Shown here: positions 5,515 to 48,918 of the stretch, piece after piece
How the letters are laid out: each line of letters opens with the position of its first letter
Position numbering within the stretch: position 1 is the first letter of the stretch
Assembly: GCF_030253575.1 (NCBI RefSeq)
Contig: NC_080559.1
Span: 30,654,501-30,718,500 of the forward strand
Reading direction: 5' to 3'
Source of the DNA: Rhododendron vialii
Lineage: Eukaryota; Streptophyta; Magnoliopsida; Ericales; Ericaceae
Length of the DNA stretch: 64,000 nucleotides
The notes under the pieces: model-generated
Told to the model about the DNA's origin: nothing
Databases searched by the model: none
What the model saw: only the letters and a program-made list of their open reading frames with translations
Made by a program: the position numbers and the translations under genes

Positions 5515-5649
5515 CCCCTGGCCCTTCTCTATCGTCTCCTTCTAGCCTCTGATCAAATTCAAACAAAAAAGAAAGATCCATCACACCAAGGGGTTTCTTG
5601 TAATTTTCTTGGTTTTTTTTGTTTGTTTGTTTTTTGTTTGGAAGTACAG

Positions 5650-6009
5650 ATGGGAGGAGACAAGATTAGTGTGTTGAATAATTTTCACCTGCACTTCCCC
5701 CACCTTCATCTCCACCACAAGAAGGAGATGATGGTGAAGGACATTCCGAAGGGCTGTCTGGCTGTTATGGTGGGGCAAGGGGAGGAGCAGCAGAGGATTA
5801 TAATCCCGGTCATATACATCAACCACCCACTCTTTATCCAGCTGCTGAAGGAAGCCGAGGAAGAGTATGGGTTCGATCACAAGGGACCCATTAACATTCC
5901 TTGCCACGTCGAGCAGTTCCGCCATGTCCAGGGCATGATTGACAAAGATCAGCAGTCCCACCACCACCACAGCCACCACCACCACCACCTTCTTTGCTTC
6001 AAGGTTTGA
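5650..6009 (+). CDS. SAUR-family small auxin-up RNA protein
   Basis: Single-exon gene encoding 119 aa. The core from about residue 29 to 94 is typical of SAUR proteins: VKDIPKGCLAVMVG, then RIIIPVIYINHPLF, then LLKEAEEEYGFDHKGPINIP, then CHVEQFR. Family knowledge: SAURs are short-lived, intronless early auxin-response proteins, several of which inhibit PP2C.D phosphatases and so promote cell expansion. I chose the ATG at 5650 because MGGDKIS is followed directly by the family region; an in-frame upstream ATG at 5623 would add nine hydrophobic residues. Odd points are a His-rich segment near the N-terminus and a striking His-rich tail (SHHHHSHHHHH), which may be of little functional weight. 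The neighbours are spacers, and no tandem SAUR array is visible here. Confidence 0.92.
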   Translation: MGGDKISVLNNFHLHFPHLHLHHKKEMMVKDIPKGCLAVMVGQGEEQQRIIIPVIYINHPLFIQLLKEAEEEYGFDHKGPINIPCHVEQFRHVQGMIDKDQQSHHHHSHHHHHLLCFKV

Positions 6010-25462: not shown

Positions 25463-25803
25463 ATGGAAAGCGAAACCACCGAACAATCTCTCCTAATGGA
25501 AATAGACGAAGAAGATGAAGAAGTAGAAGTAGTAGAAGAAGAAGAAGCGGTGCCCACTCCATAAGTACAAGAGCCCCCGAAGATCCACCGCCTGGACGAG
25601 TCCGTGGTGAACCGAATCGCCGCCGGAGAAGTGATCCAGCGGCCGGTCTCCGCCGTGAAGGAGCTGGTCGAGAACAGCCTCGACGCCGGCTCCACCTTCG
25701 TCAACGTCGTCCTTAAGGACGGCGGCCTCAAACTCATCCAAGTCTCCGACGACGGCCACGGCATCCGTGTATGTTAGTCGTTAACCCTTCTTCCCGCGAT
25801 TGA

Positions 25804-26665
25804 GCTGCCTAGGGCTGAAAAAGAACCGAACTGGTATAGGCTCGGCTCGTTAGCCAAACGTGTCGAGCTCGAGTTTTAAGCTTGTTTTGGTAAATGAGCC
25901 GAGCTAGAGTTAGTTACAGGACAATCTCTTCTGGGGCAATATTCATGTTATTGAGAGGATTTTGTTTATGGAAAATTATAAATCCTGTTAAACTTTGAGG
26001 ATTTCCATTAGTGTTTTCGAAATCCATAGGATATTTACAATCTGGTGAATTTAAGAATCCTAGTGTTACTGAATTTGAAACTTGACTCTTTTATGGAAAC
26101 TCGGCTCGTTTGTAGAGGCTCGGCTTGTTAGGCACAAGTCTGAGTTTGGACTAAATTAACTTTTGTTAGAGACTGTAATAGTAATACAGTATGTATTATT
26201 TAATTGTAGTTGCTTTTTTTTAGCATTTCGTCTAATTTTTACGTCACATCGTTGGGACGAAGTGAAATCGAAAAAATGTGAAAATATAAATCAAAGGTGA
26301 AAAATTGTTCATAAGAAGATGCGCTAGACACTAAAATATATATTTTTTTGTTTTGTTTGTGTGTGGTCTTTTTCGAACTTTTTCATCTTGACCAAGGATT
26401 AATCCAAAAAATTTGACCCCATTATAGTAAATTGAGGGAAAACAACAAAAAAATCGGCCAAAAAACTCGGAAACCTAGTCCAAAGGGGGTCTTAATAGAG
26501 GCTCCCTTAGTAAATGAGCGGAGTTCAAGCACATCGATACTAAACGAGCCAAGCTTGAGATTGATTATTTGGGATCGACTTCAGCTCGGCTGCTCGAGTG
26601 AGTATAGTTTTGATGGAGCCAAACTCGAATAGTTCAAAGCTCGGCTCTGCAGCCCTACTGAGCTC
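25804..26665. repeat. Dispersed GGCTCGGCTCG / AAGCTTGAACA repeats in MLH1 intron 1
   Basis: Blocks of GGCTCGGCTCGTTAGCC, GAGCTCGAGTTTTAAGC and AAACTCGGCTCGTTTG are scattered through MLH1 intron 1. Similar AAGCTTGAACA / AGCTCGTT blocks recur in introns at 51.3, 55.2 and 61.1 kb. The family is non-coding and its class is unknown. Confidence 0.5.
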
Positions 26666-27449
26666 TGTACTTTATTCTCAAACTTGAATAGGTTAAATAG
26701 CCATTTGTTGTTGTTGTTTGGTGGGGTGTAGTTTGAGGATTTGCCGATACTTTGCGAGAGGCACACGACATCCAAGTTGTCTAAGTTTGAAGATTTGCAG
26801 TCAATTCAGTCGATGGGGTTTAGAGGAGAGGCATTAGCTAGCATGACCTATGTGGGTCATGTAACCGTCACCACCATTACCAAAGGCCAATTGCATGGTT
26901 ATAGGTATATATTCATTGCTTCTTCTTGCTATTTCACTTCATTTTGGCTCTTATTTCTTTTGTTTTGAAATTTATGATACCCAGCCACCAAATGTGTTTT
27001 TTCGTCTGTTATTTGCCCCCGCTCTAAGAATCCGGAGCACGTTTTTTAATTATGTTTTTTTGCTGGTGGTTGTTGATTTTTATGCTTTTGTTGTTCAGGG
27101 TGTCAGAGAGATGGTGTAATTGAGCATGAGCCCAAAGCATGTGCAGCTGTAAAGGGGACACAGATAATGGTATGTTTTGGAACTTTTACCTTGTCATATG
27201 CTATCTTATTAATGACAAATTGACAACTTCGTGATTTGAGAGTGGGATTAGAATAATTCAGTGGTTAGTTGAGAAACACGAAGAAAAAAAAAAAAGGGAT
27301 AGTTCAACGCAAAAGTGGAGAATGGAGATTAAGGAAAGAAAAACATACGGGGAGAACAAAATAAAGAGTAAAGGCTGTCATCATTCCGCAATTTACTTAG
27401 AATCAATTCACTAGATTCTGAGTGAATATGGGAACTATTTGCATCGATT

Positions 27450-27469
27450 GGGGGGGGGGGGGGGGGGGG
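27450..27469. repeat. Poly-G tract, about 20 nt
   Basis: An uninterrupted run of G inside MLH1 intron 3. Long G runs are rare and are prone to sequencing-length error or G-quadruplex formation. Confidence 0.9.
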
Positions 27470-27667
27470 TGTTGTGTTAAGGGTTTGTTGGGTAATTTGA
27501 ATCCTATAAAATGCCATGGGTTTCAGGAGATAAAAAAAAAGGCATGTTGTAAAGGAGTTTTAACTTGGTTGTTCTGTGAAAATGTTCTTATGCATCCCCA
27601 AGTATTCCACTGATCGATAAATCTATTTTCTGTTTTTCCTGTGTTTGATTTGTGCTCAGATAGAGAA

Positions 27668-27725
27668 CTTATTTTATAACATGACTGCTCGGAGGACTTA
27701 TTTTATAACATGACTGCTCGGAGGA
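27668..27725 (+). repeat. 29-bp tandem duplication in MLH1 exon 4
   Basis: Two perfect adjacent copies of a 29-bp unit starting CTTATTTTATAACATGACTG (27668-27696 and 27697-27725). The unit encodes part of the ENLFYNMTARRK motif, so one copy is the native sequence. Being 29 bp, the extra copy shifts the reading frame. Confidence 0.97.
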
Positions 27726-28388
27726 AAACACTTCAGAACTCTGCTGATGATTATCCAAAAATTGTAGACCTACTAAGTCGGTTTGCCATTCATCACACAA
27801 ATGTGAGCTTCTCTTGCAGAAAGGTTAGTCTATTTTCCCTTGATGCTCAATTTATCCACTTGGGGAAACATATTTGTCTTCCTTCCCTGTTCCTTTTACA
27901 TTATGATTAATAGGAGGCCACGTCAATTTTTCGTGTATGTAGCATGGAGCTGCTAGGGCAGACGTTCATTCAGTTGCCACAGCCTCAAGACTCGATGCAA
28001 TTAGGTATGTTTATGGGGTGTCAGTTGCTCGCAATCTGATGACTATAGATGCTTCGGATGATGATCCTTCTAGTTCAGTTTTCAATATGGATGGTTTTAT
28101 CTCCAACTCTAATTACATTGCTAAGAAGATAACGATGGTTCTTTTTATAAATGGTATGTGTGCATATTCTATTGATGTAGAGGAATTGACAGGTAACCAT
28201 AGGTTGATCATTATCTGTTGAATCTTATCTTTGTGGTTACAGTTGTGCCATTATTTGTATGCAACTACTACGGGCTTTGATACAAGTAGTTGGGCAGAAA
28301 TATAGGTTAGGACTTTGGAGCACGTGTTGATGTCCAAGCGTTAAGTCTCTCTAAATCCTAAATTGGGTAGGAATGTAGGAGTGCCCTT

Positions 28389-28525
28389 TGTTGTGAGAGA
28401 AAGAAAGGAAAAGTGTATAGGGTGTTAACTAACCCTAACACATGTGAGCTTTATTTATATTATGTGGCGACTAGTTACATAACATAAGCAACCAATGTGG
28501 GACTAAGTCCAACTCTATTCTAACA
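28389..28525 (-). repeat. 3' LTR of the Copia element
   Basis: 137 bp, the left-hand copy on the plus strand and the downstream LTR relative to element transcription. It looks identical to the copy at 32750-32886. The LTR is unusually short for Copia, near the size seen in small-LTR families. Confidence 0.97.
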
Positions 28526-28534
28526 CTCCCCCTC
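28526..28534 (-). promoter_or_regulatory. Polypurine tract of the Copia element
   Basis: GAGGGGGAG on the minus strand abuts the 3' LTR. It primes plus-strand DNA synthesis. The TGA stop of the polyprotein overlaps it. Confidence 0.8.
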
Positions 28535-31500
28535 AAGCTGGAGAATAAATATCACAAAATCCTAGCTTGTTACGTAACAACTCTAAACGTGGTTTAACTA
28601 GAGACTTGGTGAAGATATCTGCCAACTGAGCTCCTGTAGACACGAAAGGGGTAGCCAACAGGCCACTATCTATCTTCTCCCGAACAATATGACAATCTAC
28701 CTCGATGTGTTTGGTTCTCTCATGAAATACCGGATTCGAAGCGATATGTATTGCTGCCTGATTATCACAATACATAGGAATAGGTAACTGTACACCAAGC
28801 CCCAACTCCTCGAGCAAAGCTCTCAACCATACAATCTCGCATGTAGTATGAGCCATGGCACGATACTCTGCTTCAGCACTGGAACGAGCAACCACAGTTT
28901 GTTTCTTGCTCTTCCAGGTAACTAAATTTCCACCAACAAAAGTACAGTACCCAGTTGTGGACCGTCTATCAGATGGTGATCCTGCCCAATCAGCGTCGGT
29001 AAAGGCTTCGACACGCAAATGACCATTTGAACGATAAAACAAGCCACGTCCAGGATGAGCCTTGAGATACTTCACAATACGAAGACAAGCGTCCCAATGT
29101 GGAAAACGAGGAGCTGACATGAACTGACTTACCATACTGACAGCAAATGAGATATCAGGCCGTGTATTGGTGAGATAATTCAGCTTGCCTACCAAGCGAC
29201 GATAACGGTCTGGATGAGGAAATATCTCCCCCTGATCAATACACAATTTGACGTTTGGATCCATAGGAGTCTCCGCAGGCTTTGCTCCTAATAAACCAGT
29301 CTCCTCTAGAATATCTAGCGTATACTTTCTTTGAGATAAACTGATCCCTTCCTTGGATCTTGCTACCTCAATACCCAAGAAATATCGTAGCTTACCCAAA
29401 TCTTTGGTGTGAAACTGACGCTGTAAGAACTGTTTCAGCTCATCAATACCTTTCTGATCATCCCCAGTAATAATGATATCATCCACATACACAATCAACA
29501 CTACTCTTCCCCGATCTGACTGAATAGAGAAGACAGAATGATCAGAATGAGAGCGACGCATACCAAACTGCAACACAGCATCACTAAACCTGCCAAACCA
29601 AGCTCGAGGGGACTGCTTAAGACCATAGAGGGCTTTGCGAAGGCGACACACCTGAGAACGCTCCCCCTGAGCAACAAACCCAGGAGGTTGCTCCATATAA
29701 ACCTCCTCGAGCAGGTCACCATGTAGAAATGCATTCTTAACGTCCAACTGAAACAAGGGCCAACCAAGATTGGCAGCCATAGAAATAAGAATGCGAATAG
29801 AGTTAATCTTGGCCACCGGAGAGAAAGTCTCAGCATAATCAACGCCATACGTCTGGGTATAGCCTTTGGCCACAAGACGGGCCTTGTACCGTTCTACTGT
29901 GCCATCTGGATTATACTTGACGGTAAATACCCATCGACATCCAACAGTAGACTTTCCTGGTGGAAGAGAAACCAACTCCCAAGTGCCATTGTCATGAAGA
30001 GCAGACATCTCAGCCTCCATAGCTGTCCGCCACTCAGAAACAGATAAGGCCTCCTGAACAGTGTTAGGAACAAAAATGGATGAAATAGAAGTAGTAAAAG
30101 CACGAAGGGACGGAGACAGATGATCATAGGAAACAAACTGAACAATAGGATGAGATGTGCAAGACCGAATACCTTTGCGAAGAGCTATAGGAAGACTAGG
30201 TGATGGCGGAGGTGGAGGTGGAGGTGGAGGTGAGGGTGGAGGTGGAGGTGAAGGTGCAACCGGATCTTGGGACGGAGGAGGCGTGGTGGCTGGTACTTGT
30301 GGGGCTGTTAATACTTGTTGCCGACGAACATACACCTGCAAGGGAGGACCAGATGGTACACAAATAGGAAACACAGACTCAGACTCAGGAAGGTCAACTG
30401 GAGTACTGTGACCCGAGTAAAAGGGCAATGACTCATTAAATGTGACATCAGCACAAACAAAATGACGACGAAGAGATGGTGAGTAACATTTATACCCTTT
30501 CTGAGTGCGTGAGTACCCCAGAAAAATACACCGAATTGACCGTGGATCAAGTTTGTCCCGGTCAGGATCCAGAGCATGAACATAACAGGTGCACCCGAAC
30601 ACTCGTAAGGGTAATGAGTGGAGAGGGCGACCAGGAAATAAAACGGTATGGGGTATCTGACCACCTAGAACGCTAGATGGCATACGATTGATCAAGTAAC
30701 ATGCTGTAAGAATAGCATAACTCCAGTAAGACTTAGGAACTTGCATTTGAAATAATAGAGCACGCATAACCTCTGATAAATGCCTAATCTTGCGTTCGGC
30801 AACTCCATTTTGTTGTGGAGTTCGAGCGCAAGAAGATTGGTGAATTATACCATGGTCATCAAAAAACTTAGAAAGAGAATTATGAAAATATTCACCTGCA
30901 TTGTCAGAACGAAATATGCGAATGCAAGTATCAAATTGAGTTTTGATTTCCATATAAAATGACTTAAAGATAGAAGACAACTCTGACCGCTCTTTCATGA
31001 GATAAAGATACGTAACACGAGAATAATCATCGACAAAAATAGCATAATACTGAAAGCCAAAAACATTAGGAACACGCATTGGACCCCAAATATCAGAATG
31101 AACTAAGTGAAAAGGACGGGTTACGCGACTCTCAACCCTAGGATAAAAAGACACTCTATGATGTTTACTAAACTCACAGACTTCACAAGGCAAAGCATCA
31201 ACACGGCTACATGAAGGTACCAGCCGTTTAAGATTCTGAAGGGATGGATGACCAAGTCGACAATGATGTTGATAGGGTGACACAGAAGACTGAAAGGCAA
31301 CAGAACTAGGGTGAACATTGTCAGTAAAGTAATATAAACCACCACGCTCAGTACCACCACCAATTTTTCGCCCCGTCTTGAGATCCTGAAACACACAACC
31401 ATGAGGAAGAAATGTGACAGAGCAATTTAAAGATTTAGTAAGTTTACTAACAGACATAAGATTTAATGGAAAACGAGGAACGTGCAATACTGAATCCAAA

Positions 31501-32102
31501 GTCAAAGAAGAAGTAACAGAAACCGAACCCAAACCAGTAATATCAGTGGTAGAACCATCTGCTAAGGTAACACGAGATGGTTTATCAATAGACTGATGGC
31601 CAGAAAGAATAGTAGAATTACCAGTCATATGATCAGATGCACCAGAATCAATAACCCAAGGAACAGAAAAATGAGAAGTTGCAATACAAGCACTAGAAGA
31701 ACCTGTCTGAGATAGCGTAGCAATGGAGGAACTTGTCTGAAGTGACACAAGGCGTTGGTACTCCTCCATAGAAATAGTCACCATAGCAGTGGAGCGTGCA
31801 GCTTGCCTAATATCCTTGGGAGAAGTAACCCGATGAGCCTGAGAAAAACCATGTAGGTCATAGCAGTGGTCCACCGTATGATTAGTTCCCCCACAATAAG
31901 TACAAAGTCTATAACCATGGCCTCGACTATGGCCACCTCTCCTTGACATGTGACCTGTACGACTAAATCCACAACGACCAAAACCATGACCACCAGAAAC
32001 GCGGTCAAAACGACCACTGTACCCATAATCACGGCTAAATGAAGAACCAAAATCACCAGAATCAGCGGAAGTAAAATCAGAACCAGATTTCATTGCAAAC
32101 AT
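28533..32102 (-). CDS. Copia polyprotein, gag-truncated (zinc knuckle-PR-IN-RT-RH)
   Basis: An uninterrupted frame of 1189 codons from the first ATG at 32102; the frame is open about ten codons further upstream to a TAG. Domains in order: zinc knuckle CTYCGGTNHTVDHC near residue 67; aspartic protease WVIDSGASDHMTG near 150; integrase HHCC region (RLGHP, CEVCEFSK) and DDE core with HSDIWGP, FRSDNAGEY, QQNGVAERK; a Pro-rich linker; reverse transcriptase with FQLDVKNAFLHGDL and YVDDIIITGDD; RNase H with DADWAGSPSDRRSTTGY and SSAEAEYRA. Family knowledge: full Copia polyproteins have about 200-250 extra N-terminal Gag residues (UBN2/capsid), which are absent here. No internal stop or frameshift is visible, so the enzymatic part could still be active. 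Confidence 0.95.
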   Translation of the reverse strand: MFAMKSGSDFTSADSGDFGSSFSRDYGYSGRFDRVSGGHGFGRCGFSRTGHMSRRGGHSRGHGYRLCTYCGGTNHTVDHCYDLHGFSQAHRVTSPKDIRQAARSTAMVTISMEEYQRLVSLQTSSSIATLSQTGSSSACIATSHFSVPWVIDSGASDHMTGNSTILSGHQSIDKPSRVTLADGSTTDITGLGSVSVTSSLTLDSVLHVPRFPLNLMSVSKLTKSLNCSVTFLPHGCVFQDLKTGRKIGGGTERGGLYYFTDNVHPSSVAFQSSVSPYQHHCRLGHPSLQNLKRLVPSCSRVDALPCEVCEFSKHHRVSFYPRVESRVTRPFHLVHSDIWGPMRVPNVFGFQYYAIFVDDYSRVTYLYLMKERSELSSIFKSFYMEIKTQFDTCIRIFRSDNAGEYFHNSLSKFFDDHGIIHQSSCARTPQQNGVAERKIRHLSEVMRALLFQMQVPKSYWSYAILTACYLINRMPSSVLGGQIPHTVLFPGRPLHSLPLRVFGCTCYVHALDPDRDKLDPRSIRCIFLGYSRTQKGYKCYSPSLRRHFVCADVTFNESLPFYSGHSTPVDLPESESVFPICVPSGPPLQVYVRRQQVLTAPQVPATTPPPSQDPVAPSPPPPPSPPPPPPPPPSPSLPIALRKGIRSCTSHPIVQFVSYDHLSPSLRAFTTSISSIFVPNTVQEALSVSEWRTAMEAEMSALHDNGTWELVSLPPGKSTVGCRWVFTVKYNPDGTVERYKARLVAKGYTQTYGVDYAETFSPVAKINSIRILISMAANLGWPLFQLDVKNAFLHGDLLEEVYMEQPPGFVAQGERSQVCRLRKALYGLKQSPRAWFGRFSDAVLQFGMRRSHSDHSVFSIQSDRGRVVLIVYVDDIIITGDDQKGIDELKQFLQRQFHTKDLGKLRYFLGIEVARSKEGISLSQRKYTLDILEETGLLGAKPAETPMDPNVKLCIDQGEIFPHPDRYRRLVGKLNYLTNTRPDISFAVSMVSQFMSAPRFPHWDACLRIVKYLKAHPGRGLFYRSNGHLRVEAFTDADWAGSPSDRRSTTGYCTFVGGNLVTWKSKKQTVVARSSAEAEYRAMAHTTCEIVWLRALLEELGLGVQLPIPMYCDNQAAIHIASNPVFHERTKHIEVDCHIVREKIDSGLLATPFVSTGAQLADIFTKSLVKPRLELLRNKLGFCDIYSPA

Positions 32103-32465
32103 ATCACCGTACAATGAGAGGCAACTAGTCAACTACCGATAGATCAACCAACCAAATACTCCACTAACAAACGGCCAATAAACAAGAAATAAGGAACTGA
32201 TTGACCGGCTAACGACCAAGGGCACGACACCGCATGCATCCAACAAAACCAAAGTAGCCACCGAACAACATAATCCCAATATCAAGCAACAACCAAGAGC
32301 TCATATGCCAACATAGACCAAATAACTCAACACAATCTAACAATTGAAATCAGACTTCAACATACCCAAACTACCATCTATTGGAGAGGATAAACTGTAG
32401 ATTGACCAAAAAATCCAAAATTACTAGAACAATCAGTGCATAAGAGTAACGGAATAATACCCAAC

Positions 32466-32582
32466 AATGATGAACAGTGCGCGATGAACAGTACGACGGT
32501 GAACAGTAATCGGTGAACAGTGCCGACGATGAACAGTATCGGTGAACAGTGCCGACGATGAACAGTAATCGGTGAACAGTCC
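32466..32582. repeat. Minisatellite in the Copia leader
   Basis: About nine repeats of a (G)(A/G)TGAACAGT core, grouped into a larger unit GGTGAACAGTGCCGACGATG plus AACAGT(AATC), lie in the untranslated leader between the primer-binding site and the polyprotein. Read on the transcribed strand it is an ACTGTTCA(C/T)CG array. The array takes the place where gag would be expected. Confidence 0.9.
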
Positions 32583-32737
32583 TGTGAACTAATGATTAGG
32601 GTTAAGGCAGAGGCTAAGATTAGGATTGTGATTTTATGTACAGAGACTAGGGTTTAGGCTAAGATTGTAGGGATTATGTACAAAGGCTACGGTGGTTTAG
32701 GATTGTTGTGGTGGTTTAGGATTAAGATTAAGATCCC

Positions 32738-32749
32738 GCTCTGATACCA
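32738..32749 (-). promoter_or_regulatory. tRNA-iMet primer-binding site of the Copia element
   Basis: TGGTATCAGAGC on the minus strand starts at the inner edge of the 5' LTR. It is the classic complement of the 3' end of plant initiator tRNA-Met, used to prime minus-strand synthesis. Confidence 0.93.
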
Positions 32750-32886
32750 TGTTGTGAGAGAAAGAAAGGAAAAGTGTATAGGGTGTTAACTAACCCTAAC
32801 ACATGTGAGCTTTATTTATATTATGTGGCGACTAGTTACATAACATAAGCAACCAATGTGGGACTAAGTCCAACTCTATTCTAACA
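32750..32886 (-). repeat. 5' LTR of the Copia element
   Basis: 137 bp, the right-hand copy and the upstream LTR for minus-strand transcription. It should carry the element's promoter. No difference from the other LTR was seen on reading. Confidence 0.97.
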
Positions 32887-34601
32887 CCCTTGACATATTC
32901 AGGTACCTTAGGTTAGGTCGTATAGAAGAGTCCATGTCATGCCACTGACAGGGAATGTAGTATAGGACAGGTGTTGCTGGAAGAGTGACGAGATTAGAAC
33001 AAAGCAATTGACAGTAAACAAATAATGAAATGAAACCATAAGTACCCAAAAGAAAAGGAAAGATCAATTGCCGAAATTTCTCTTCTCCAAGTCTCAAATC
33101 ACTATTCTCAATGTAGAAATTGTCTATCAATAACAATAAGCCATGTATATTAAGTCTTTTTAATGAAGCTCTTTTTTTTTCTTTTTTTTGGGTAAGGCTT
33201 TTAATGAAGCTCTTAGTATGACAGAGAAATCTATCCTGAAAATGCATAATTATCCGAGAATAAAGCCTAAGTCAAAGTTGATCTTAACATTTCATAGTTC
33301 CTCAGCTGATTCTTTTTGTACCTATCAACTGGTTAGCAAAACAGGTAGATTGTACATAAAATCAAGTCGTATACTGTTCAAGTCAGAAAAAAAATGATTG
33401 AATACTGAACTGGAATAGCTTCTGTAATTGATGTTACATAACGGATGTAGCTGAGGTCAAGTGATATTTTAAGGCCAAAGATTTGGGGTACGAATCTTAA
33501 ATTCTTTTGGTTCCGTGTCTCCTTCTATATCAATGACATTAGCCTGGTCATTTCCACTTAGGTATTATTAGATTGAGCAACCAGCTGTCGATGATACTGG
33601 TTTTGCAACGTTAATGCATTCAAGTTTTATTTGTTCCCTTGGGACCAAGATTTCCATAACCAAGTTTAGTAGCCATCAAATTTCCAAACTGCGAAAGATT
33701 TTAAATTAATAAACAAACTACAACAAGGAAGGAACTTCACGTGATATGGTGTTCCGGGTGTCATAGGTTTTCCTTAATTTCCGTCGTCTTTAGTGAAGGG
33801 AAGGTAGAGCCAACCAAATGGGACAAGCTGAGCAACCTTGATGATCTCTCAACTCTAGCCTACAAGCCCTCCAGTTATCTCAAATGGAGATCCATATCGG
33901 CAAGTGGGGGAAGGTGGAGGGGAGGGATGAGCCGCGGTAGAAGTGAGGGTTTGGCGGTTCTTTGGGCAAAATTACTGTCTATATTTTTGCCTCGGTTAAC
34001 TCATTTCCCTACATACATTTAAAATTTTAATTTATGAAATTGCCTGTTATACTGTTCTAGTTATTGTTTTGACTGTAACAATCATACTAATCTCTTTTGC
34101 CACCCCTTAACCTAGCAATCGAAATAGTATTCACCCTTTTTTTTTTTTTTGCTTTTCCTTTGTTTTACTTCCAGGTCAATTAGTTGAGTGCAGTGCTTTA
34201 AAAAGAGCTATTGAAATTGTTTATGCGGCAACCTTACCCAAAGCATCAAAGCCCTTCATTTATATGTCGGTTGTATTGCCACCTGAGCATGTTGATGTGA
34301 ATGTACACCCGACAAAGCGAGAGGTATGAATGTCTCTTGACACATTGCTTGAAAGCTGATACTATTCTTCTTAATTTTAATTTTCCTTGAGCCTCTCACA
34401 GCCTCCATAACTCAATGAAATTGATCTATGAAAACCTGATAGTTGATTCCAATCATCTTTTGAAATTCAAGCCCTACACTTCGTTTTTACTGAGCTTGAA
34501 ACTCCAAACTCAATGAAACTTGTTATGGTGGTCCTTCCATTTCGTGCGCTTGGAGGTGTTCCTTTGTCCCTCCTCGTTTTCGATTTATGTCCAATGAATT
34601 A

Positions 34602-34734
34602 CTGTGTTTGCTTCCATTCTCAAAAAGAATTTTCAAAAAATTCCCCCTAGATTCCCCCTACTTCTGACATTTCTCTCTCTATCTCTCTCTATTTATTACC
34701 CCTACTATTTTTCAAAAAACAAACCAAACACAGC
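34602..34734. mobile_element. Small MITE in MLH1 intron 6
   Basis: CTGTGTTTGCTTCC at the left mirrors AAACCAAACACAG at the right. The 130-bp interior is CT- and A-rich without coding capacity. Superfamily unassigned. Confidence 0.45.
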
Positions 34735-37076
34735 ATAAAGAGATTGGTTGATGGAAGCTGGTGTAGTTGAGTTCTTCCTCTGGTAGGAAAGGTGGAAACC
34801 CTCTGAGCTGTTCTTTCTTCATTGGGGTTAAGCTCATAGTAAAATATTGCTGTAAACTTGGTAACCTCATTAGGGAATCATCCATGTGCAGGTAAGCCTT
34901 TTGAATCAGGAAATTATCATTGAAAAAGTGCAGTCCGCAGTGGAGTCAAAATTGAGAAACTCCAATGAATCGAGGACATTTCAAGAACAGGTAATTTTTT
35001 TCTGCCAGATTGGTAGCTTATAGTTTACTGATTGATCCAAACAAACTGAACAATGGTTATTTAGTCCCCACTACAATGATATATTGGTTCTAACATCTCC
35101 TTGAGCTTGAGGACTGGCTTCAAGCATTGTCCCTGTTTCCCTCTTCCCGGGTTTTCTTGTTTACTTTTACTTGGATTTGAGATAATTTCTGTAGTTTCGT
35201 AGTGCAGAGTTTCTGTATGGAGCATTTACTATGGCTTTCATCCCCGGTGATATTTTTTAGAATCAATAGGGCTCACGCTCCCAAACTGTAATCTAAAGCA
35301 AATACGGATTTCTGCCAGCTACTTATCCATCACAACTCACTCCTCATTAAATTACCAAGATCATCATATAGTCCTGCTGTAATTAGAGTTTTAAACATAG
35401 TGTACGGGCCTTAAGGCCCTTTTAAATCGTTAGGTTGAGCAAGGCTGTTGGGAAATGTTGACTCTGTATAGATATTGGAACACTTGCTACCTGTGCTACA
35501 ATTGTATATCCTTTTTTTTTTCCGCAATTATAAGTCTAACTTTTATTTCATGCTTTTAGAGATGGAATTGGGATTACAATTAAGTCATTAATATTATTCA
35601 GCATGAGCTTTGTTGACTGTATGTTCGTAAATATATACTTAGCACTTAGTCCTAGGGGCATGCAGTTATCTTTTATGTTCCTGCTATCTACGGCTGTGCT
35701 GTTAGTGCTTCGCTTTTTCTTTATGCTCTCTGCATTTCAAATATATCTACGCCATTTTACTATTTTCCTCAGTCTTTTAGCGACATAACCCTCTAAACTT
35801 ATATGCCTACATGTGTTCTCTTTTGTTTCATTTATGAGACAGGTGGTAGATCCCTCTCCATGTAGTCCTATGGTTATCGTCAAAGATTCGCAAACGAAGC
35901 CCTCAGCTTCTGGTATGAATATATGTTTCTCTCTTACTTGGCAGTGCCTCATCCTTTAGCAGATCTATCAAAGATAAATAGGTCATTGTGGGCTTTGGCT
36001 ATCAAATTCACCAATTTTATTGGCCTTGTCTTTTAGGGACGAAATCACAAAAAGTTCCAATCCACAAAATGGTACGAACTGATTCACAGGATCCTGCAGG
36101 AAGGCTGCATGCTTACTTGCAAGTTAATCCTTCTAGCCTTCAGGAAAAGAGTGCTAGTTTGACATCTGTTAGGTAGGAGTCATATACAGTCCAAGTGCAT
36201 CGATTACTTTGTCTGTTTGTCATTGACGTACTTAACTCATCTTTCATTTGTTCCCACTCTAGAGATCACCATCTGTTCGACAGATCAAATCTTCCCTACA
36301 ACTTACCACCCTCTCCTCCTTATCATTGGTCAATATTGATTTTTATCATTGCTCTTCCTGAGTGAACACATGGAAGAAGCAAACATCACATTGTATTTAT
36401 GGGGAAAAGGAAAAACAAAACATAATTAAAATACACCAACCAATATTTGAAAATTGTGCTCCGAAGAACGGCAAAACAAAAACAGGAACAAGGTTAAATA
36501 GGGACAATGGTAACAAGGAATATGACTTGGATGAGTGTATACAGTAACATCCATAAGAACAATGTTAAATATCTTTATCTGACCCTAGCCCAATCCAAAT
36601 CAAGGAGACAGCTGTTAAGATTTGCGGTACAATAGGACCTAGATAGGAGTAGAAAATTAGGGTAAGTTATTGATAGCAGAAAAATCTCAACATGAGATGA
36701 CTCTTTTTGTGGAATGACATGACAACACTTGGATTCTTATGATAAAAGATTACTCGAACTTTTAGGTATGCAGGTGCCAACTCTTAGCCAAGTAATCCAA
36801 TGTGGGTTATAACTTACATTGGTTGGACTTCAAAACTGAACCAAACGATCTACTGAGTGTCCTTAGTTCTAAGTACTCCATTGTTTGGTGTGTGTCCACA
36901 AATTTGACATGCGTGAGAAGTATAAAATCAGTTATGTTTTGGGTTCGATGGGTTGACGTGGTTGGTTTTCAAATCCTAGTGTAATATCTGAGCTTTCATA
37001 AAACGTAATATGGGTATGTATGTCAGTCGAAGACAATACAGCACTTGCTTGGATCTTGCATAGTAGGAGAAGTAAT

Positions 37077-37293
37077 GCCTTTGTTTGGTTCTCATCTTTG
37101 GGTATTTTAGTTTTGGTAGTGGGTGGAGAGAGAAATAAGGTAATGATTGGAAAAAGGGGTAATGAGTAGAGAGAGATAGAGATAAAAATGAAAGTAATAA
37201 TTGGAGAAATAGGGTAATAATTGAAAAGAGAAAGAGGGTAATGATTAGAAAACAAAAACAAAACAAAGTTAAATTAGAAAACGAACAAAGCCA
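37077..37293. mobile_element. MITE-like element in MLH1 intron 9
   Basis: TGCCTTTGTTTGGTTCTCA at the left mirrors GAAAACGAACAAAGCCA at the right. The interior contains several GGTAATGATTGGAAA / GGTAATAATTG repeats. Boundaries approximate. Confidence 0.45.
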
Positions 37294-39420
37294 ATATCTC
37301 CCTGTCAAAGTGAGGGTATTTCCATGTGCCATCTTATTTGTTTGTCTTTATGCAGAACCATAATTTGAAAGTGAGAGAGTTCATTTCTGGCTTGATCTAC
37401 TCTTGTGTTGGGAACATTTTAGTTATTGTCCTACGGCGGAGGACAGAGGTATCTAGCAGTTAGTATAATCTGAAATGTGTCTCATATCCTTGGTGTTTAA
37501 TTTTAAGAAGGAAGTTGAATAAGGAGGAATCCTTTAGAATTTTGGTAGTTATGTGGAGGATGAATCTGTGGTCAGTGGACACGTAACGGTTATTCTTGTT
37601 GACATCTATCAATTAAACATTGGCTGCCTATATTGACTGGACATTGATTGTACATTTCACTTTGGGTATCAATTATACCTCTGTGAGGGAAACATAGTTG
37701 GTCTTGTCAGGTACCCTGATCCTCTTTTCTTGTTGCCCTTATTGGTTTCGTATTGTTATCTTTAAATGTATTGTAGACTTTTTAGTTTTGGTAGCTGAAG
37801 GCTGGTAGCTAGAAAATTATATTCTAAACAATCTGTAGTAAACCCAAAGTTGGTACTGTACTGATTCATAATCTTAATTTCGAGAAGATTTCGTGGTGTT
37901 GTCTCCTACCAAAATTGTAAATAGAGTATCCAATAGCAAGTAAAGCTCGTGAATGACTGAACTGGAAATATTATTCAGCAGAGCACCGAATAAACATTTT
38001 TAAAGCCTTGCTTCGCAGGATTAAACTAATAATGAATACTGTAGTGAACAGCTTAGCTTACTGTTAGGCACGCACACACACAAGTTATATTTGTAGGATG
38101 AGAAGTCTGTTTCTTCGGATATTTTTATGGTCTGGCCACGACTGGGATTAAGTTGTAGATGCGTATTTTGTTATGTGTAAGGTTCGTATAAGAGAGCTCT
38201 ACTGCAGGTCTTCTATCAGACAAAGGAGGAACCCGAAGGAAACTGCCGATCTCACTAGTATTCAGCAGCTTATTGATGACAGTAGTCATTCTGGTAAGTT
38301 TTTACCAGATTCATCATCTTCAACAATAAAAATCTTCTCCTGATATACTTCTTTCTCTGTAGCTCTGCTGGACATTTTAAGACACTGCACATATATTGGG
38401 ATGGCAGACGATGTGTTTGCTCTGCTTCAGTATAACACTCACTTATATCTTGCTAATGTAGTGAATTTGAGGTAATAATGCTGCACTGTTGCTGTTTCTT
38501 AGAACAAAAAAGAATGACAGATTTAGATTTTTATTTTCTTATCTATGTTCCTGGAAAAAAAATTGTTCCAGAAATTTTGTTGTCATATAATCCTTTGTAA
38601 GACTACCCACTAAACTGAAGATTCTGAAAAGTAAACTATTTGAGTTTATCTTACTCGTTTGTCAAGTTCAAATTGATCTAGGGAATACTGATGACTAGAT
38701 GTTGCACTTCTATGTTTACTTGTTCCCTTTATTGTTGCATCAGTTCCTAATTCGTTCTTTTGTTTTGGTCGTATGCTTTTGACAGCAAAGAACTCATGTA
38801 TCAGCAAGTCCTTCGTCGGTTTGCTCACTTCAACGCAATTCAGCTTAGTGAACCGGCCCCTCTGTCTGAGCTTATTTTGCTAGCACTGAAAGAGGAGGAT
38901 TTAGACCCACAATGCCGTGAAAAGGATCAACTGAATGAAAAGATTGCAGAAGTAACTAAATCTCAACCAAGCAGATTGTTTTCTTCACTTTGCACGTTAT
39001 TTTGCTTCTATCCTGTTTTTCCTTTGCCATCAAGTGCGTAGTACATTTTGCTTTTGTCTCTCGTTTGACAATTTACTATTTATGAATTGCTTAAGTGCTC
39101 GTCCTCTCACCTCCTCCTCTCTCTTTCCCTCTCTTTCGACAGGTTAGAGTAAAATCTGGTTTGATTGATAAATGCAGATCAACTTAGATCACACGGTTCT
39201 TATTGGTCAAATTCGTGCTGACCTATTATCTGGGGCTCGCTCATTAGTTTAAGATACTTTGATATCATTTATTCTGTTGGCAGTAGGTTATTTATCACTC
39301 TTATCCATCAATAGTCATGCTTCATGTACATGAAATTTGTCTGATTCATGAGAAAAAAGGAAAAACAAGCAACATACATTCGGTGTAAAAGTGTACTGAT
39401 ATAGTGATGGATTAGTTATA

Positions 39421-39595
39421 CTCCCTCCGTCCCGATTTGTTTTTCCCCTTTTTGACTTATACATGTCCCAAATTGACTGTTCAATTTCAAAATCAATAGA
39501 TGAGATTATGTAAATTTTCAAATCAAGGGATCAGATTTGGTTTCCTTTATAAGTTGGAAATCCAAGATTAGACAAACAAATCGAGACGGAGGGAG
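39421..39595. mobile_element. Stowaway-type (Tc1/Mariner) MITE
   Basis: The terminal repeats are CTCCCTCCGTCCCGATTTG at the left and CGAGACGGAGGGAG at the right, inverted over about 25 bp, with TA flanking both ends (39419-39420 and 39596-39597). These ends and the TA duplication are diagnostic of Stowaway MITEs. Length 175 bp, in MLH1 intron 12. Confidence 0.93.
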
Positions 39596-39791
39596 TAATG
39601 CTAAACACGAGGCTGCAGAACACTTAAGGATGCTGAGGCAAGATCAAACAATTTTTACTTGATTGTTTATGCATTCAGAGAACAAATAGCATTTTTGGTT
39701 CTTACGTAATTATCGCATAAGACAAGATAGAATGCAAAGAACTTTTTTATGCTTTTTGGCCTCTATATCTTAGTAACAATAGAAACTAGTA

Positions 39792-40804
39792 CATACCCTC
39801 TGTTTAAAACAGCACTTTCTCTCTCTAAAACCAGTCTCCACTCTCTACCATCTGCAAATAGGGTTTTCGTTTGGGGGCGGCACCCGCCGCTAGCCGCTCC
39901 CCCCTGCCTCTCTCCCCCTTTTCTTCTCTCATCTCTTTCTGTGTCCATCTTTCTTCCTTCCCCATTCTCGTCTGATCTATTCCCTTTCTTTTATTCACAA
40001 AACGATTGGCATCGCAACCGATTGGGCGGCGATGGTGGCGGCTGGGTGATGCTGTGTTCGTTTCTCGGCGTCTGATTCTTCCAATCGTTTTTGGGAGTCC
40101 TTTGATATCGCTTCACAGCGGTTGGGTCCTGGATCTGGCGGCTGGTATGGCTTCTCCTCCTCTTTTTCCTCTCTCCTCTGTTTTTTCGAACCCCTGCCCT
40201 CCGATCCCGCTGTTCGCCTGTTGCTGGACTCACTGACTTTTGCCTAACGGCAGGGGCTTTCCTGAGGGGGTTTTTGCGTCCGGCGTGGTTCCTACCTGGG
40301 TCTTTGTCGGTGGACCTGGGTTTTGCTTAACGGCCTGGTCGTAGCTTCCGCGGTTGCTTGGGTTCGTTGGGCTTCGTTTTACTCCGTCGTTGGGTGACCA
40401 GTGGTGGTTTGGTGGTGGACGATGGTGGCTGACGGGTGGTGGGTGTTGTGCATCCTGATCGGATGGGCGGCGGTGGGCGATGGTATGATCTGCTGTGGTT
40501 GTGTTCGGGTGCGGTTTGCTGCTCCGTTGGGTTGCCAATGGTGGTTTGGTGGTTGGCGGAGTGGTTGACCGGCGGTGGGGGCGGTTGAGATCTAGGGTAG
40601 GTTTTGGTTTTCTTTCGGGCTGGGCTGTAATGTTTTATCTGGGCTTTTTGGCTCTCTGGGTGTTTTGTGCTTCATTGTATTATCTGGGCTCTTGGGCCCT
40701 TAAGTGTTTGGGCTTCGGCGGTTCGGCCCTTTGGGTGTTTTTTCCAACTTTTGGTTGAAATCCTCTTTCTCCTTAAATAAAATGTTTGCTTCGCCTTTCA
40801 AAAA
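39792..40804 (+). mobile_element. Retroposed ~1-kb sequence with 17-bp target duplication
   Basis: The flanks share an exact 17-bp direct repeat, AACAATAGAAACTAGTA, at 39775-39791 and 40805-40821. The inserted segment ends in an AATAAA-containing tail and a short A-run (CCTTTCAAAAAA), the hallmarks of target-primed reverse transcription. It is GC-richer than its surroundings and begins with a leader-like CT-rich stretch followed by a GGTGGCGGCTGGGTG-type region. I recognise no reverse transcriptase or endonuclease, so it may be a truncated LINE, a SINE-like unit or a processed copy of a cellular transcript. It lies in MLH1 intron 12. Confidence 0.8.
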
Positions 40805-41432
40805 AACAATAGAAACTAGTAGCCTAAGTAGTTCCAGAAAAAATTCTATTGCCTTGCACTGTTCTGTGACATATTGAGATTTATCCAGCTCAACTCAGCG
40901 AAACATAATTCTTACCTCAATGTCTGTGGTCATATACATACATTGTGTCAATCCCTTCCCAATTCGCTTTATCCAGCAGTTAATGGTCATCCTCCTATAT
41001 GAGAGCCAAAATTTACAGGTGGACATTCTAAATGAAAAGGTAAAGCATCCAAGTCAAAATTTGGAAAAGAATGTGGATTGCAAGCTGCAGCTCCTCGTAT
41101 CAAAATAATCGTAAACTAATTGTTTTTTTGGTCAGACTCATTATTGTAGAATAAAATCTTTATGAATAGGGGTATTTACAACATCCTAGTGGGATTTAAG
41201 ATTTTTTAATTACGTTTCTATGGATTTTTATGTACTTATAGGTATTGTTTTTCTTCTTCATCTTCTCCAGATGAATACAGAGCTGCTCAAGCAAAAAGCT
41301 GAAATACTAGAGGAATATTTTGGTATTTATGTTGATTCGCAGGGTAAATTGTCTAGGCTTCCTGTCATACTTGACCAGTACACTCCTGATATGGACAGGG
41401 TCCCAGAATTTGTACTTTGTTTGGGCAATGAT

Positions 41433-44400
41433 GTGAGTTCTGATATCTATTTCTTTTTATCATTCCTTTCCTTTGCATGTTTGTCTATCTTAATGTATAT
41501 TTAGAAGCACTTGCAGATGTGATGTTGTCTGGAAACTTAATTGACTACGTATGCGAGTCTTGTGTCATTCTAACGTCTAAGGGTTCCACTCTGCATTATT
41601 GTGGGAGATACAAGGCATGTACAATTTCACAATAGTCTTCCCAATCAAACCATGTTTGGAAAGACCGCCTAATAGTCGATACAATTGTTGAGTTCATCTT
41701 TCAGCACAATCCTATTGGTCCCAAAACAATGAAAAGTCGAACGAGACGGAAAATTGGCAGAAATAGAATTGGTTTCTTAGTTTTCCTTCCCCGAAAATAT
41801 ATCACGGATGTTTAATCTAGGAGACAATTAGAGATTTGTTTTTAATCACCAGTGTATTTATCCGAGAAGGCTTCGCTGTTGGTAATGTGGTATATCATTT
41901 AAGTTTTTGTTCTATTACATGGCGGTTCAGAAACTTTTAAAATTTGGTAGGAGATGTCAGATTCCCAGAACTGCTTTTATAATTTTTTTTAGGTGGACAA
42001 TTCTATTGCGAGATTAATGCATACTAGAGGTTCTTGGTGGATTATCTCATCCTTGAATCTGGTATATTTGGAAAGGAGTAAGTCATGGCATTATTAAAAC
42101 TTCTGCTTTCAGGTTGAGATTGCTGCTAGTGAACTTTTGGGCTGCTTTTTCCGGGTTTGGTTTGCCTCCTTCCTTAGGTTACATAATTCAGTTTAACGAC
42201 AGCACCAATCTCCTACATGCCTAGTTTGATCATATTCTCCTTCAAGTTCAAAACAAACAATACAGAACACAAGGAATGGAGGAGCACACGCATAAACATA
42301 GCTCCAACCACGAAAATGTAGTACACTCAAACCGAGACACGAGTCAACTACTCAACCAGTTCGATCTAATTCTCAATCCTCACATTCCAAAAAAAATGCT
42401 GAACACTGTAAATGTGGTAAAATAAATCAGGAGTGCACACATGCCCAAAAATTTCCATTCAAATTTTCACCCTCGAATCTCGCACGACGCACGCCCACTG
42501 GTTCCAATTCCACCCCTCTCGAAAAAAAATTCAAAATTCAAACCTCCAGTTTGCCTAATGGTAGAACAGTCATTTTGTTTTCAACTTCCTTTCCTCACAC
42601 AAAATAGCCACTTTTTAGCATGTTGTCAACCAATTATTACAACCATTTATTTGATCACAGGAGGACCTCAAAAGGCGATAAAAACGCCTGTATGAAATTC
42701 TCTAAACTGGTATGTTTTCTTTTCTTATTTGGTTTGACAATACGTTCAATCAATTCAACTAACGGAAGAAATGACACAAAAAAAAATAGCAATGGTTTTC
42801 ATAAAGACAATACAAGAAAATAATACAAATACAAAGCCACAACTTTCATATCAACAAATCCAAGGGGTTTCAACACATAGAAGCCATGGAAGCACAAATG
42901 AACCCTAAAAAGGACTACCATCACGAATTGAGCTGAAAACACAGGAGAACGAAAGAAACGAACCTGATTAGAGAAAAGAGGAGCTCACTCGAAACAAAAT
43001 CCGAACATACGGCCTGCAACTACCAAATTGGCTCTCTCGATTTCGGCCAACAACTCCCAGATCTTGATGAAGAGAAGATGGAGGCCGGAGCTTCTTTTTC
43101 CTTAACAGAAGATGAAGATGGAGGCGAGGACGGCGCTGGTGGAGGAAGTCGGTGCAAACTGCAGATCGTGGAGGACCAGAGGTTAGAGAGAAGGGAGAGA
43201 GCTGAGGTCCGAGGGAATGGCTACGCATCTGAACTCTGGAGTGGGGATTTTTTTTTTAGGAAGGATAAGAGGGTAATTTCACCTACGAAACTCACCTAGG
43301 CAAGGAAAAGATAGATAGGGGAGGGTAAAGATAGGTAGGGTACGGTTTGGGAGTGAACAGTCAAGATTAAAACACCAGCTGGATTGACGGTCAAGATTAA
43401 AATGATTTATATAAATGTATATGTATATAATATATATGGTTCGGTCCTATATCAGTTCAGTCGGTTCAGTCGGTTCGGTCCTACATCGGTTCGATCAGTT
43501 CAGTCCGAATAGATTTTCAAAAAACCGAGACCGAACCGACCTAAGTTCGGTTCGGTTCGGTCCACCCTGAACCTTCAACAAATGCCCCTGAACCAACCGA
43601 ACCGATCAATCAGTTTTTACGGTCTTTTTCGGTCCAGTCGGATTCGTAACAGCCCTAATCAATAGTGTCATATTTATCACTAGTTGCAATTGCCATGTAG
43701 AATGAGTCTACACTACTTATGGGCTTGATATTTAAATGGGAGTTGTTGGATTTCAGCCAAGTAATGAGATGTTAATTTTAACGAGGTTAATCATAACTCA
43801 TCTTGAGTCACCTATACCAAAAGGTAAATGCACTTTCTAGATGTTTATTTAACAGAAGTAAATGCACTTTTTGGGTACAGAAAATTTGGCCCCCTTGAGT
43901 ATGACTTGAATTTCCAAGTGGATATTGAGCAAATGTCTAGAAGTGACTATGGAAACATATGTCACAAATTAAGGAAGAGATAATTTTGTAGAGACCATTT
44001 AAGATGTTAACCCGTTTTTGTAACAACTAATTACTAGTGTAAATGTGCTCGGCAATTCCATTTCAGGTGAATCGGGCATTTTTATCCATTCTATTGGTCT
44101 TACAATTATTTGGAAGGAACTTCTTCTTAAATACTACTATGAAATTACCCTAAGCTGCATTTAAAATCAAGATAGTACAATTATTTGGAAGGAATTGACT
44201 CTGGTTTCTGTGGCCTCAGGCCAGTAGAGATTCCCTACCACTCACACCTTCTCCTTGTTCTTTCTTTCTTCAACCCCCTTTTCCCATCTGGAAAAACACA
44301 TGATTGAGATGGAGGAGATATTGCATTCTAATGATAAATAATACCAGAGAGAGAACCCAAGCAATATGTTCTTGGGGAAACCTTGACAGCAAAATAAGTT

Positions 44401-45525: not shown

Positions 45526-45558
45526 TAGAACTTTCTCTGTCTGAGAAGAAAAGGGAAA

Positions 45559-48500
45559 ATGGCTCATGCGAAAGCAAGTTTCCCCAGTCTTACAAGGGGA
45601 ATATTGTGCAGAGAAATATCATGTGGATACAGAGTTTGCAAACATGGTGAGACTAATTTGACTGACTTTCGATTGATTAGATGGAATAATACTATAGTTC
45701 ACAATGTGAGGAAGAGAGAGAACAGGAATCCAGAGAGAGAAAGAGAGCTTATGGTACAGTGCAGCACTTCTTCTTCTCCTTCTTCAACTGAGGAGATGGA
45801 GTTGGATGGCAAGATTGAGGATTTGGAAGCAAAAAATGGAGATGGAGAGGGGCAGTTTGGGGATTTGGTGAGGGAGTATGGATGGAAGGTGAGGAGAATG
45901 GTTGAGGAGCAGAGTGAGATGAGGAAGGTAGCTCAAGTTCAAGCTGAAGCCTTTCACGAACCTGTTTTTCTCTTCAATGATCTCTTCTTCCAATTCTTTG
46001 AGGTTAGTTTTCTTCTCTTTTCTTCTTCTTTTCTTGCTATTGTTCATGGGTTTCTCTTTTATTTTCTTGTTCTTCTTGTTTGTGGGTACCAAATCAGAAA
46101 GTCTACTGTCCCATAACCAAGATCAAGAAAACTTCCCATGATGCTAATTGTATGGTCCAGATTGACTTGAGTATATTCAGATGAATCTGAACTACACAAT
46201 TTATTTTGTACAGAGCTTTCTTGATTCCAATTCTTATCACTGCTTGTACCCTAGGAAGCACATACAGTTCACAGATACGGCATACGGACACGACACGGAT
46301 ACGTGGACACAATTTCTTCTAAAATTAGTGCACGGACAGGTCAGAGTCACGTCAAATGTAAGATGTATTTGTGTATTATGGAGGTATGTTATGAATTCAT
46401 ATAAAAGTCGGGAAAATTATTTCTATCAAACTGAGAATAATACGGAGAAGGGTCTGCATATAAGTATACAAGAACTGTACTGCTGTGAAAATTTTCACTC
46501 TAGGCCAAGGTTAAAGGTTTATTTAATGTTCCAAGAGTGTCACCAACGTGCCATAAAATATCCACAATGTGTTTGAGCAAATAAATTGTATAATAAAAAG
46601 ATTGGACAAGTGTTTAAGCATGTCCGACACGTGTCGGGAGAGTGTCGTATCGTGTCCGTGACTAATACGTGTCAGACACGGATACATGAGACCGGAAGAC
46701 ATGCTCTTAGACTTGTACCAAATCAGGTGGTTCTGTTCCTATTAAAGTTGTTTCCCTCATTTGCTCAGAATCTTTCTCATTTGGTTCTGTTCTCATGACA
46801 TTTTCTTTGGCATTGCAAACTGACAACTGGTTCGTATCTTTCATGAATTTGAAGAACTGTAAGTTATCTCCAACTCATTTGGGAAGGAAAATCTAGAAGA
46901 GCTTGGCTTTAGAGGATTTCTCTCCATTCTTTACCAGCGGACGCAAGAATTAGATAAAAAGAAGGCCAAACACAAAATCATTTTCAGTTTAGAGGATGAT
47001 TAAAAAATTATAATTGAGAGGTTCAAGTTAAGTTATCAAGATTTTAAAGCGACGAAAATTATGATTTTTGCATGAATACCAAAAAAGAGAATTATTGAAA
47101 AGTTTGTGGTGCCATGAACTCACCTGCTCCAGCTCCGTCCGCCACTGCCATTATCTGTCCTACGTACCCTTTCTAGTATGGACATTTTTGCTTCAACACG
47201 AACAAAGTACAATCCGTGGGAAAAAAATACTCTTATGTTGGCTTAAAGCCAATCGAATATTTGATTAGGTTGGCTTTAAGGAACGGTTTCCTTATTCAAT
47301 GGTTGAAATCTGTGATTATATGCCAGCCCAAAGAAGCTGCTTGAAACTGTCCTTGAATTTCGACATGGGCTAGTAGGGAGCAACCTAAGGCGTTATTCTT
47401 TGTCCTGTCACCTGGGCATAATTTTTGATTCAAAATAGTTTCAATAATGCTACAGTAACGTCATGATCAAAATCATCACCATTGCAATGCCACTACTCAC
47501 AATTTGGTTTCTTCTTGTATCATATAGGCAGAAGTACTTTCAGGACTTCTTTACAAACTTCAAAACTCAGCCCCAAACAGGTAAATATGAGCTCCAAAAC
47601 TTGTAACAACTTCTTTCTTTCCTTTTTTCTTTTTTAAGGCTTATTTTCACTCTGATCAAAAGAGAGCAAGACGGCAGATTTTCTAAGTTACAAGTTTTCT
47701 TTGTCCTCTAGGATTTTTGTAGTCAGTCTCTATGGCACCATTTCATTCAAAATGCACAAAAAATGGTAATCACAATCCAGAGTGGTGGTTACTGGTTAAG
47801 GTTGAAAAAGCATGTTGAAAATTGTGAGAAAAGTATGAAAATAAGTAAAAATCCATTGAAAGGTGTAAAAAGCGGTCTGAAATTCTTAGGTACTTGACAT
47901 TATTCCCACTTAACCCTGCCTAGTTGGTAGCCATTAGAATCTGCTATTGAAAATCGACATGCTCTTAGCAAATTCAAATTGCCCATTCAGTTAATTTTCC
48001 ACATATGCTGACAGTGAGGGACATACCTAACAGGTATGCATGTTTGGTGGCTGAGTCTAACACCGATGATCTCGAGTTGGGGCAAGAGCTTGTGGGAGTC
48101 GTAGATGTAACAGCCTTGAGAGATGAAGCTGTTCTTCGGCATCTCTCTGGAGCTAAAGAATATCTTTATGTGTCTGGGATTGCCGTTTTAAACACTTTCA
48201 GGTAAGAACATTCTTTAAAGAAAATCCTTTTCCTTTCCTTGATAATCTGCAATGCAATGCAATGCAATTTAAGTTGACGTTCCCTAAGCTTTTTGATAAT
48301 CTTGAAGATGTCTCTTGTGGTTTCTCAGATTATGTAAACATCTCTTGCTTTTTATGATAACAAAAAAAACTTCCTCATTAGTCAATCTTCTCCTTGTACA
48401 ACATTGAATTACTTGGTACAACAACACCACCACCACCACCACCGACAAAAGGGACATTGCGTAAAGGCAGTAATAGCATGCGTGTTTATCAGTTTTGTGT

Positions 48501-48918
48501 TTTTAATATAGGAGTTTCGCAAATTTATCTGTCACCATGTTTAAAACACGGACTAGGTGGCCATATGAAGGACAAACCAAATTCGTATATTGTTAATTTT
48601 AGAATCTATAGGGGACTAGGGGAAGTGTAGTTGGTTGATACTGGTGTATTGAGTGTAATATTGACTATAATTCTTTCTATGACTAACAGGAGGAGAAAAG
48701 TGGCCAGTGCATTGCTAAAAGCCTGTGACATGGTTTCCATTCTTTGGGGTTTTGAATATCTTGTTCTACGGGCTTACGAAGACGATTTGGGTGCTCTCAA
48801 ACTGTATGGAAATGCAGGCTACAGAATTGTCTCAGCAGATCCCCCATGGATGACTACTTGGATTGGTCGAAAACGCCGCATTCTTATGATTAAACGGCAT
48901 AGTTCTTGTCCAAAATGA
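45559..48918 (+). CDS. GNAT-family N-acetyltransferase, probably plastid-targeted
   Basis: Four exons by frame and GT-AG sites: 45559-46002, 47528-47580, 48034-48201, 48690-48918, joining to 297 aa. The C-terminal half is a GNAT fold: YACLVAES and ELVGVVDVT strands, YLYVSGIAV (beta-4), the acetyl-CoA-binding turn RRRKVASALLKAC, then LRAYEDDLGALKLYGNAGY and a basic end. In the canonical motif the fourth position of RRRGxA is Gly; here it is Lys. The first ~50 residues are basic and acid-poor, as in a chloroplast transit peptide. Family knowledge: plant plastid GNATs acetylate protein N-termini or lysines. Best guess is a relative of the Arabidopsis plastid GNAT group, from memory of the family rather than a search. 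A hAT-type MITE sits directly upstream. Confidence 0.85.
46270..46690. repeat. GACACG-rich repeat in GNAT intron 1
   Basis: GATACGGCATACGGACACGA on the left and a GTGTCGTATCGTGTCCGTGA block on the right are inverted with respect to each other, with further GTGTC(G/A)GACACG motifs. Probably a decayed DNA transposon inside the 1.5-kb intron. Confidence 0.5.

Follow-up and report, generated by a model that had tools for sequence, protein, structure and literature searches.

The window, a 64,000-nucleotide stretch of the Rhododendron vialii genome (C3:30654501-30718500), contains a copy of MLH1 with a disabled reading frame. Does this plant carry a working MLH1 elsewhere, or has it lost the gene? 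The original prediction left both answers standing: either there is a second intact copy, or MLH1 has disappeared from the lineage or accession. We compared the window copy with the rest of the assembly (532,647,506 bases in 13 contigs).

Exons 1-13 of MLH1 were located on the plus strand at positions 25463-41432 of the window. Exon 1 (25463-25768) was delimited by alignment with its counterpart on C12, and exons 2 (26732-26904) and 5 (27943-28153) by homology. Exons 3 (27099-27169) and 4 (27660-27823) carry the length changes described below. Exons 6-9 (34175-34323, 34892-34990, 35843-35912 and 36037-36172; span 34175-36172) and exons 10-12 (38208-38293, 38363-38471 and 38786-38951; span 38208-38951) follow, and exon 13 (41271-41432) is the final one present. 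All 13 donors are GT and all 12 acceptors are AG, so the original prediction, in calling nearly all splice sites intact, if anything understated their preservation. Intron 3 contains a run of 20 G residues (27450-27469). Two other frames were observed in the window. The first, at 5515-6009, encodes a SAUR-type auxin-responsive protein (PF02519, 1.1e-20). The second, a minus-strand frame at 19738-20361, gave no match in a Pfam search; we take it to resemble the N-terminus of a CDPK-related kinase.

The four disabling changes that had been read from the window were all present, and comparison with the open paralogue on C12 bore them out. An in-frame TAA lies ahead of the ATPase domain at 25562-25564, which is codon 34 counted from the ATG at 25463; the C12 gene has TTA. 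Exon 3 has 71 nt versus 73 in C12, a 2-nt loss that shifts the frame. Exon 4 contains a 29-bp tandem duplication (27668-27725), of which C12 has a single unit. The 3' exons are missing: MLH1 homology ends in intron 13 at 42197, and the C12 alignment skips exons 14-16 in the window. A tblastn search with an Arabidopsis MLH1 protein found nothing better than E 3.9 for the region of these exons among the matches listed, and that match was 14 residues on the opposite strand. A further change, a 9-nt in-frame loss, was found in exon 10. As -2 and +29 sum to +27, the original frame returns inside exon 4, after which the spliced model stays open for 434 codons, through the end of exon 13. We considered whether the 29-bp duplication rescues the frame after the 2-nt loss and rejected this, because the shifted stretch holds three stops before the frame returns, in addition to the TAA. 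With its stop at codon 34, its frameshift and its missing exons 14-16, the window copy does not have the open frame through the ATPase and C-terminal domains that a functional MLH1 requires.

The assembly was searched with three Pfam models. DNA_mis_repair (PF01119) was found at C13:1263140 (in a 453-aa open frame), at C12:804832 and in the window copy. HATPase_c_3 (PF13589) was also found at three places, on C12, on C3 and on C13, the last lying 2.7 kb from the PF01119 place on that contig. With the Arabidopsis MLH1 query, tblastn at E up to 1 found no match in the C13 stretch that carries PF01119, and we therefore assigned this stretch to another MutL-type gene. Mlh1_C (PF16413) gave five exon matches, three on C12 and two on C3, and its profile positions 197-251 were matched only on C12. 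All initial candidates were scored (3 of 3 for PF01119, 9 of 9 for PF13589 and 10 of 10 for PF16413), a search that strongly decayed fragments could escape. On this sequence evidence, the three models indicate MLH1 on C12 and C3 only. The window copy was assigned to MLH1 by its PF16413 exon matches and by its exon-by-exon alignment with the C12 gene.

The search of the remaining genome thus found a complete MLH1 at C12:795969-808901 on the minus strand. This gene has 16 exons and an open frame of 754 aa. With exon bounds set by homology, all 15 introns are GT-AG. The protein carries the ATPase, transducer and Mlh1_C domains (PF13589, 2.9e-13; PF01119, 3.6e-30; PF16413, 1.4e-85). Its top PDB match was human MLH1 (4p7a, 1.1e-117), and the best PMS2 chain followed at 1.1e-39. 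It terminates in KIFERC, presumably like the Arabidopsis MLH1. Of the two answers left standing, an intact second copy is therefore the one that holds; loss of MLH1 does not. The reading of the window copy as a pseudogene was right.

The two loci share far more than MLH1 exons. In blastn comparisons, window positions 25287-52748 on the plus strand aligned with C12:809081-774623 reversed, introns included. The alignment comprised 17 collinear pieces, each of at least 150 bases, with 86.6-97.4% identity. The homologous block measures 27.5 kb on C3 and 34.5 kb on C12, and it starts 176 bp upstream of the MLH1 ATG. Beyond it, a further 65 kb of C3 on the upstream side and 51 kb on the downstream side shared only short repeats with C12:700001-870000. 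The C3 block is thus a segmental duplicate of C12:774623-809081 (reverse strand), with later insertions and a 12.6-kb deletion. A processed pseudogene was rejected, as the introns are kept. A whole-genome duplicate was also rejected, as the block, ending at 25287 and 52748, is too short and, with a Ks of 0.057, too young.

A neighbouring gene was duplicated together with MLH1. It lies at 45529-48918 of the window on the plus strand, and we take it to be acetyltransferase-like (GNAT). Its exon-like frames (45529-46113, 47969-48202 and 48631-48915 in the window) are open in both the C3 and C12 copies, and judging from these frames the neighbour may now exist in two working copies. The single exon of this gene submitted to Pfam gave no match. 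The same search gave no match for TIC40-like, PPR-like, kinase-like or acetyltransferase-like fragments, and the MYB domain alone was confirmed. The block was most likely copied from C12 to C3, because C12 has the complete gene and because its setting would fit an Arabidopsis gene order in which TIC40, MYB and PPR genes presumably lie near each other.

The original prediction had allowed that the missing 3' exons might lie in a segment broken by the assembly. This was not the case. C3 lacks C12:785320-797926, a 12.6-kb stretch that includes MLH1 exons 14-16 as well as a frame encoding the MYB domain. Homology with the C12 block picks up again at window position 43662, past the missing stretch, and the fetched sequence contains no N; the 3' exons were therefore removed by a deletion. 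In place of the 12.6 kb stands a dispersed repeat (42198-43661, strand unassigned). It has a near-full-length relative at C13:15041561-15042969 (85%) and many partial copies on other chromosomes, with at least 54 matches, the window itself included, when 40 of 355 candidates were scored. The 3' end was thus lost in a deletion whose junction now holds this repeat. This may have come about by recombination between two copies, by insertion with deletion, or by a deletion to which the insertion is unrelated.

Two insertions were found in the introns of the window copy. Intron 5 contains an LTR retrotransposon of about 4.5 kb on the minus strand (28389-32886), which we take to be of Copia type. Its 137-bp LTRs (28389-28525 and 32750-32886) are identical, it is flanked by a CCCTT target duplication, and the C12 gene has the empty site. 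It contains a minus-strand, stop-to-stop frame of 1199 codons. This element is very young. Intron 12 contains a retroposon-like insertion of about 1 kb (39792-40804, strand unassigned) that is absent from the C12 alignment. It is flanked by 17-bp AACAATAGAAACTAGTA repeats (39775-39791 and 40805-40821), and its right end is A-rich.

The divergence of the two copies was then calculated. Over the 13 shared exons, Ks was 0.057 and Ka was 0.019, from 23 synonymous and 27 nonsynonymous differences; codon 229 and the gap codons 162, 163 and 475-478 were excluded from these counts. The residue was changed in 26 codons, the stop included. The two copies differ by 2.7% over 1872 exon sites and by 5.5% over 7540 intron sites (413 substitutions; K2P 0.057). 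Divergence was 4.7% over 750 sites of intron 13, 5.1% over 8621 sites of the 3' block and 8.0% over 175 sites of the 5' flank, or about 5% for the block as a whole.

The number of nonsynonymous differences bears on the history of the C3 copy. Neutral evolution of this copy from birth onward would predict 37-54 nonsynonymous differences under the neutral rates and C12 constraints tried, and 27 were observed. Across 12 pairings of neutral rate with C12 constraint, the Poisson P for the deficit lay between 4e-5 and 0.06; the binomial P was 0.017-0.060 over three settings. The deficit indicates that the C3 copy was probably functional for some time before it decayed. Under a two-phase model, it would have been unconstrained for 9-72% of the time, varying with the assumed omega and rate. 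We also read by eye the 14 changed codons that lie within the human MLH1 match. The human residue matches C12 in 5 codons and C3 in 3, and differs from both in the other 6, so both copies have changed; the 3 codons that side with C3 mark changes at conserved sites in the C12 copy. With so remote an outgroup as human, these results are suggestive of a phase with two working MLH1 copies, followed by loss of one. The bolder form of this reading, that two selected, working MLH1 genes stood on different chromosomes during a large part of the period since duplication and that the second was lost lately, is one we entertain tentatively and doubt somewhat more than we believe. As a separate observation, codon 317 of the C12 gene (in C12:804841-804989) encodes Met, and both human MLH1 and the broken C3 copy have Ala. 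The difference takes two base changes at a conserved site, on the presumed working copy.

The C3 copy might instead have been dead on arrival, having lost its promoter and 3' end at duplication and drifted neutrally ever since. Homology begins only 176 bp above the ATG, and the copy may therefore have arisen without its regulatory sequence further upstream. In addition, the Poisson P reached 0.06 at the lowest neutral rate and the strongest C12 constraint tried. The shortfall of nonsynonymous differences, in both the Poisson and the binomial calculations, argues against neutrality from birth. The block also resumes past the 3' exons, so these were apparently lost in a separate deletion inside it. 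We consider death on arrival unlikely.

The lesions were judged from the assembly, and the 20-base G run lies near them, so we also asked whether a real gene, or an allelic haplotig, had been altered by errors of assembly or sequencing. C3 and C12 are separate chromosome-scale contigs, and the sequences flanking the two loci differ. They diverge by about 5% across the introns and the 3' block, and the hundreds of substitutions that set C3 apart from C12, 413 of them at intron sites, place the lesions in a separate locus. Long-read errors do not typically take the form of a 29-bp tandem copy or of a 12.6-kb deletion filled by a repeat. Error is thus a very improbable source of these lesions.

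Expression of the C3 remnant, as a truncated MLH1 or as a source of antisense or small RNA that modulates the C12 gene, is equally improbable. All splice sites are present and the frame is open from exon 4 to exon 13; a truncated transcript with the 434-codon open frame could arise from a cryptic promoter, with translation re-initiated in exon 4. Against this, the start of the ATPase domain lies behind the stop, and Mlh1_C lacks its C-terminal end. That the lineage or accession is without MLH1 altogether, a view that arose because the window copy is broken and the window alone had been seen, is refuted at the level of sequence by the complete C12 gene with its full domain set and deserves practically no credence.

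We are therefore left with a non-functional MLH1 paralogue on C3, derived from the duplication of a block of about 34 kb, and with the C12 gene as the supplier of MLH1 function, a reading that we regard as very probably correct. The block would have been duplicated, most likely from C12 to C3, with 176 bp upstream of the ATG, the whole of MLH1 and the acetyltransferase-like neighbour. The C3 copy would then have lost the 12.6 kb with MLH1 exons 14-16, the junction becoming occupied by a repeat, and would have acquired the early stop, the 2-nt frameshift, the 29-bp tandem duplication and the intronic transposons. We infer both the order of these lesions and the functional phase before decay. 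The C12 gene, presumably expressed, would supply the mismatch repair and meiotic functions of MLH1.

The C3 copy has the features of a duplicated non-processed pseudogene: introns and flanks in common with the parent, a disabled frame and an intact parent. Like other members of this class, it kept its introns, has a co-duplicated flanking gene, bears several lesions and has its intact parent elsewhere; nothing distinguishes it from them. Its sequence marks it as a duplicated pseudogene of ordinary kind and fairly recent origin, and as a new example of the familiar pseudogenisation of duplicate genes. Our literature searches (listings and abstract openings) on plant MLH1 duplicates and pseudogenes found nothing on the C3 locus, and those on MLH1 together with Rhododendron found no paper. 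In a wheat study (PMC6813927), duplicated meiotic genes are said to return to single copy in angiosperms (Lloyd et al. 2014), and no significant gene loss is reported for wheat. As in the return to single copy described there, one of two copies of a meiosis and repair gene has been eliminated here; the copies there are whole-genome duplicates, whereas ours is a small, younger segmental duplicate.

These results remove the alarming reading of a plant without MLH1. They also warn annotators that the C3 locus may get called an 'MLH1-like' gene. At most, the locus offers a small natural case in which a gene for repair and meiosis was duplicated and then went back to one copy. If two selected MLH1 genes did work side by side until lately, the count of active MLH1 copies may still vary among relatives of R. 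vialii, and with it perhaps the crossover or mutation rate.
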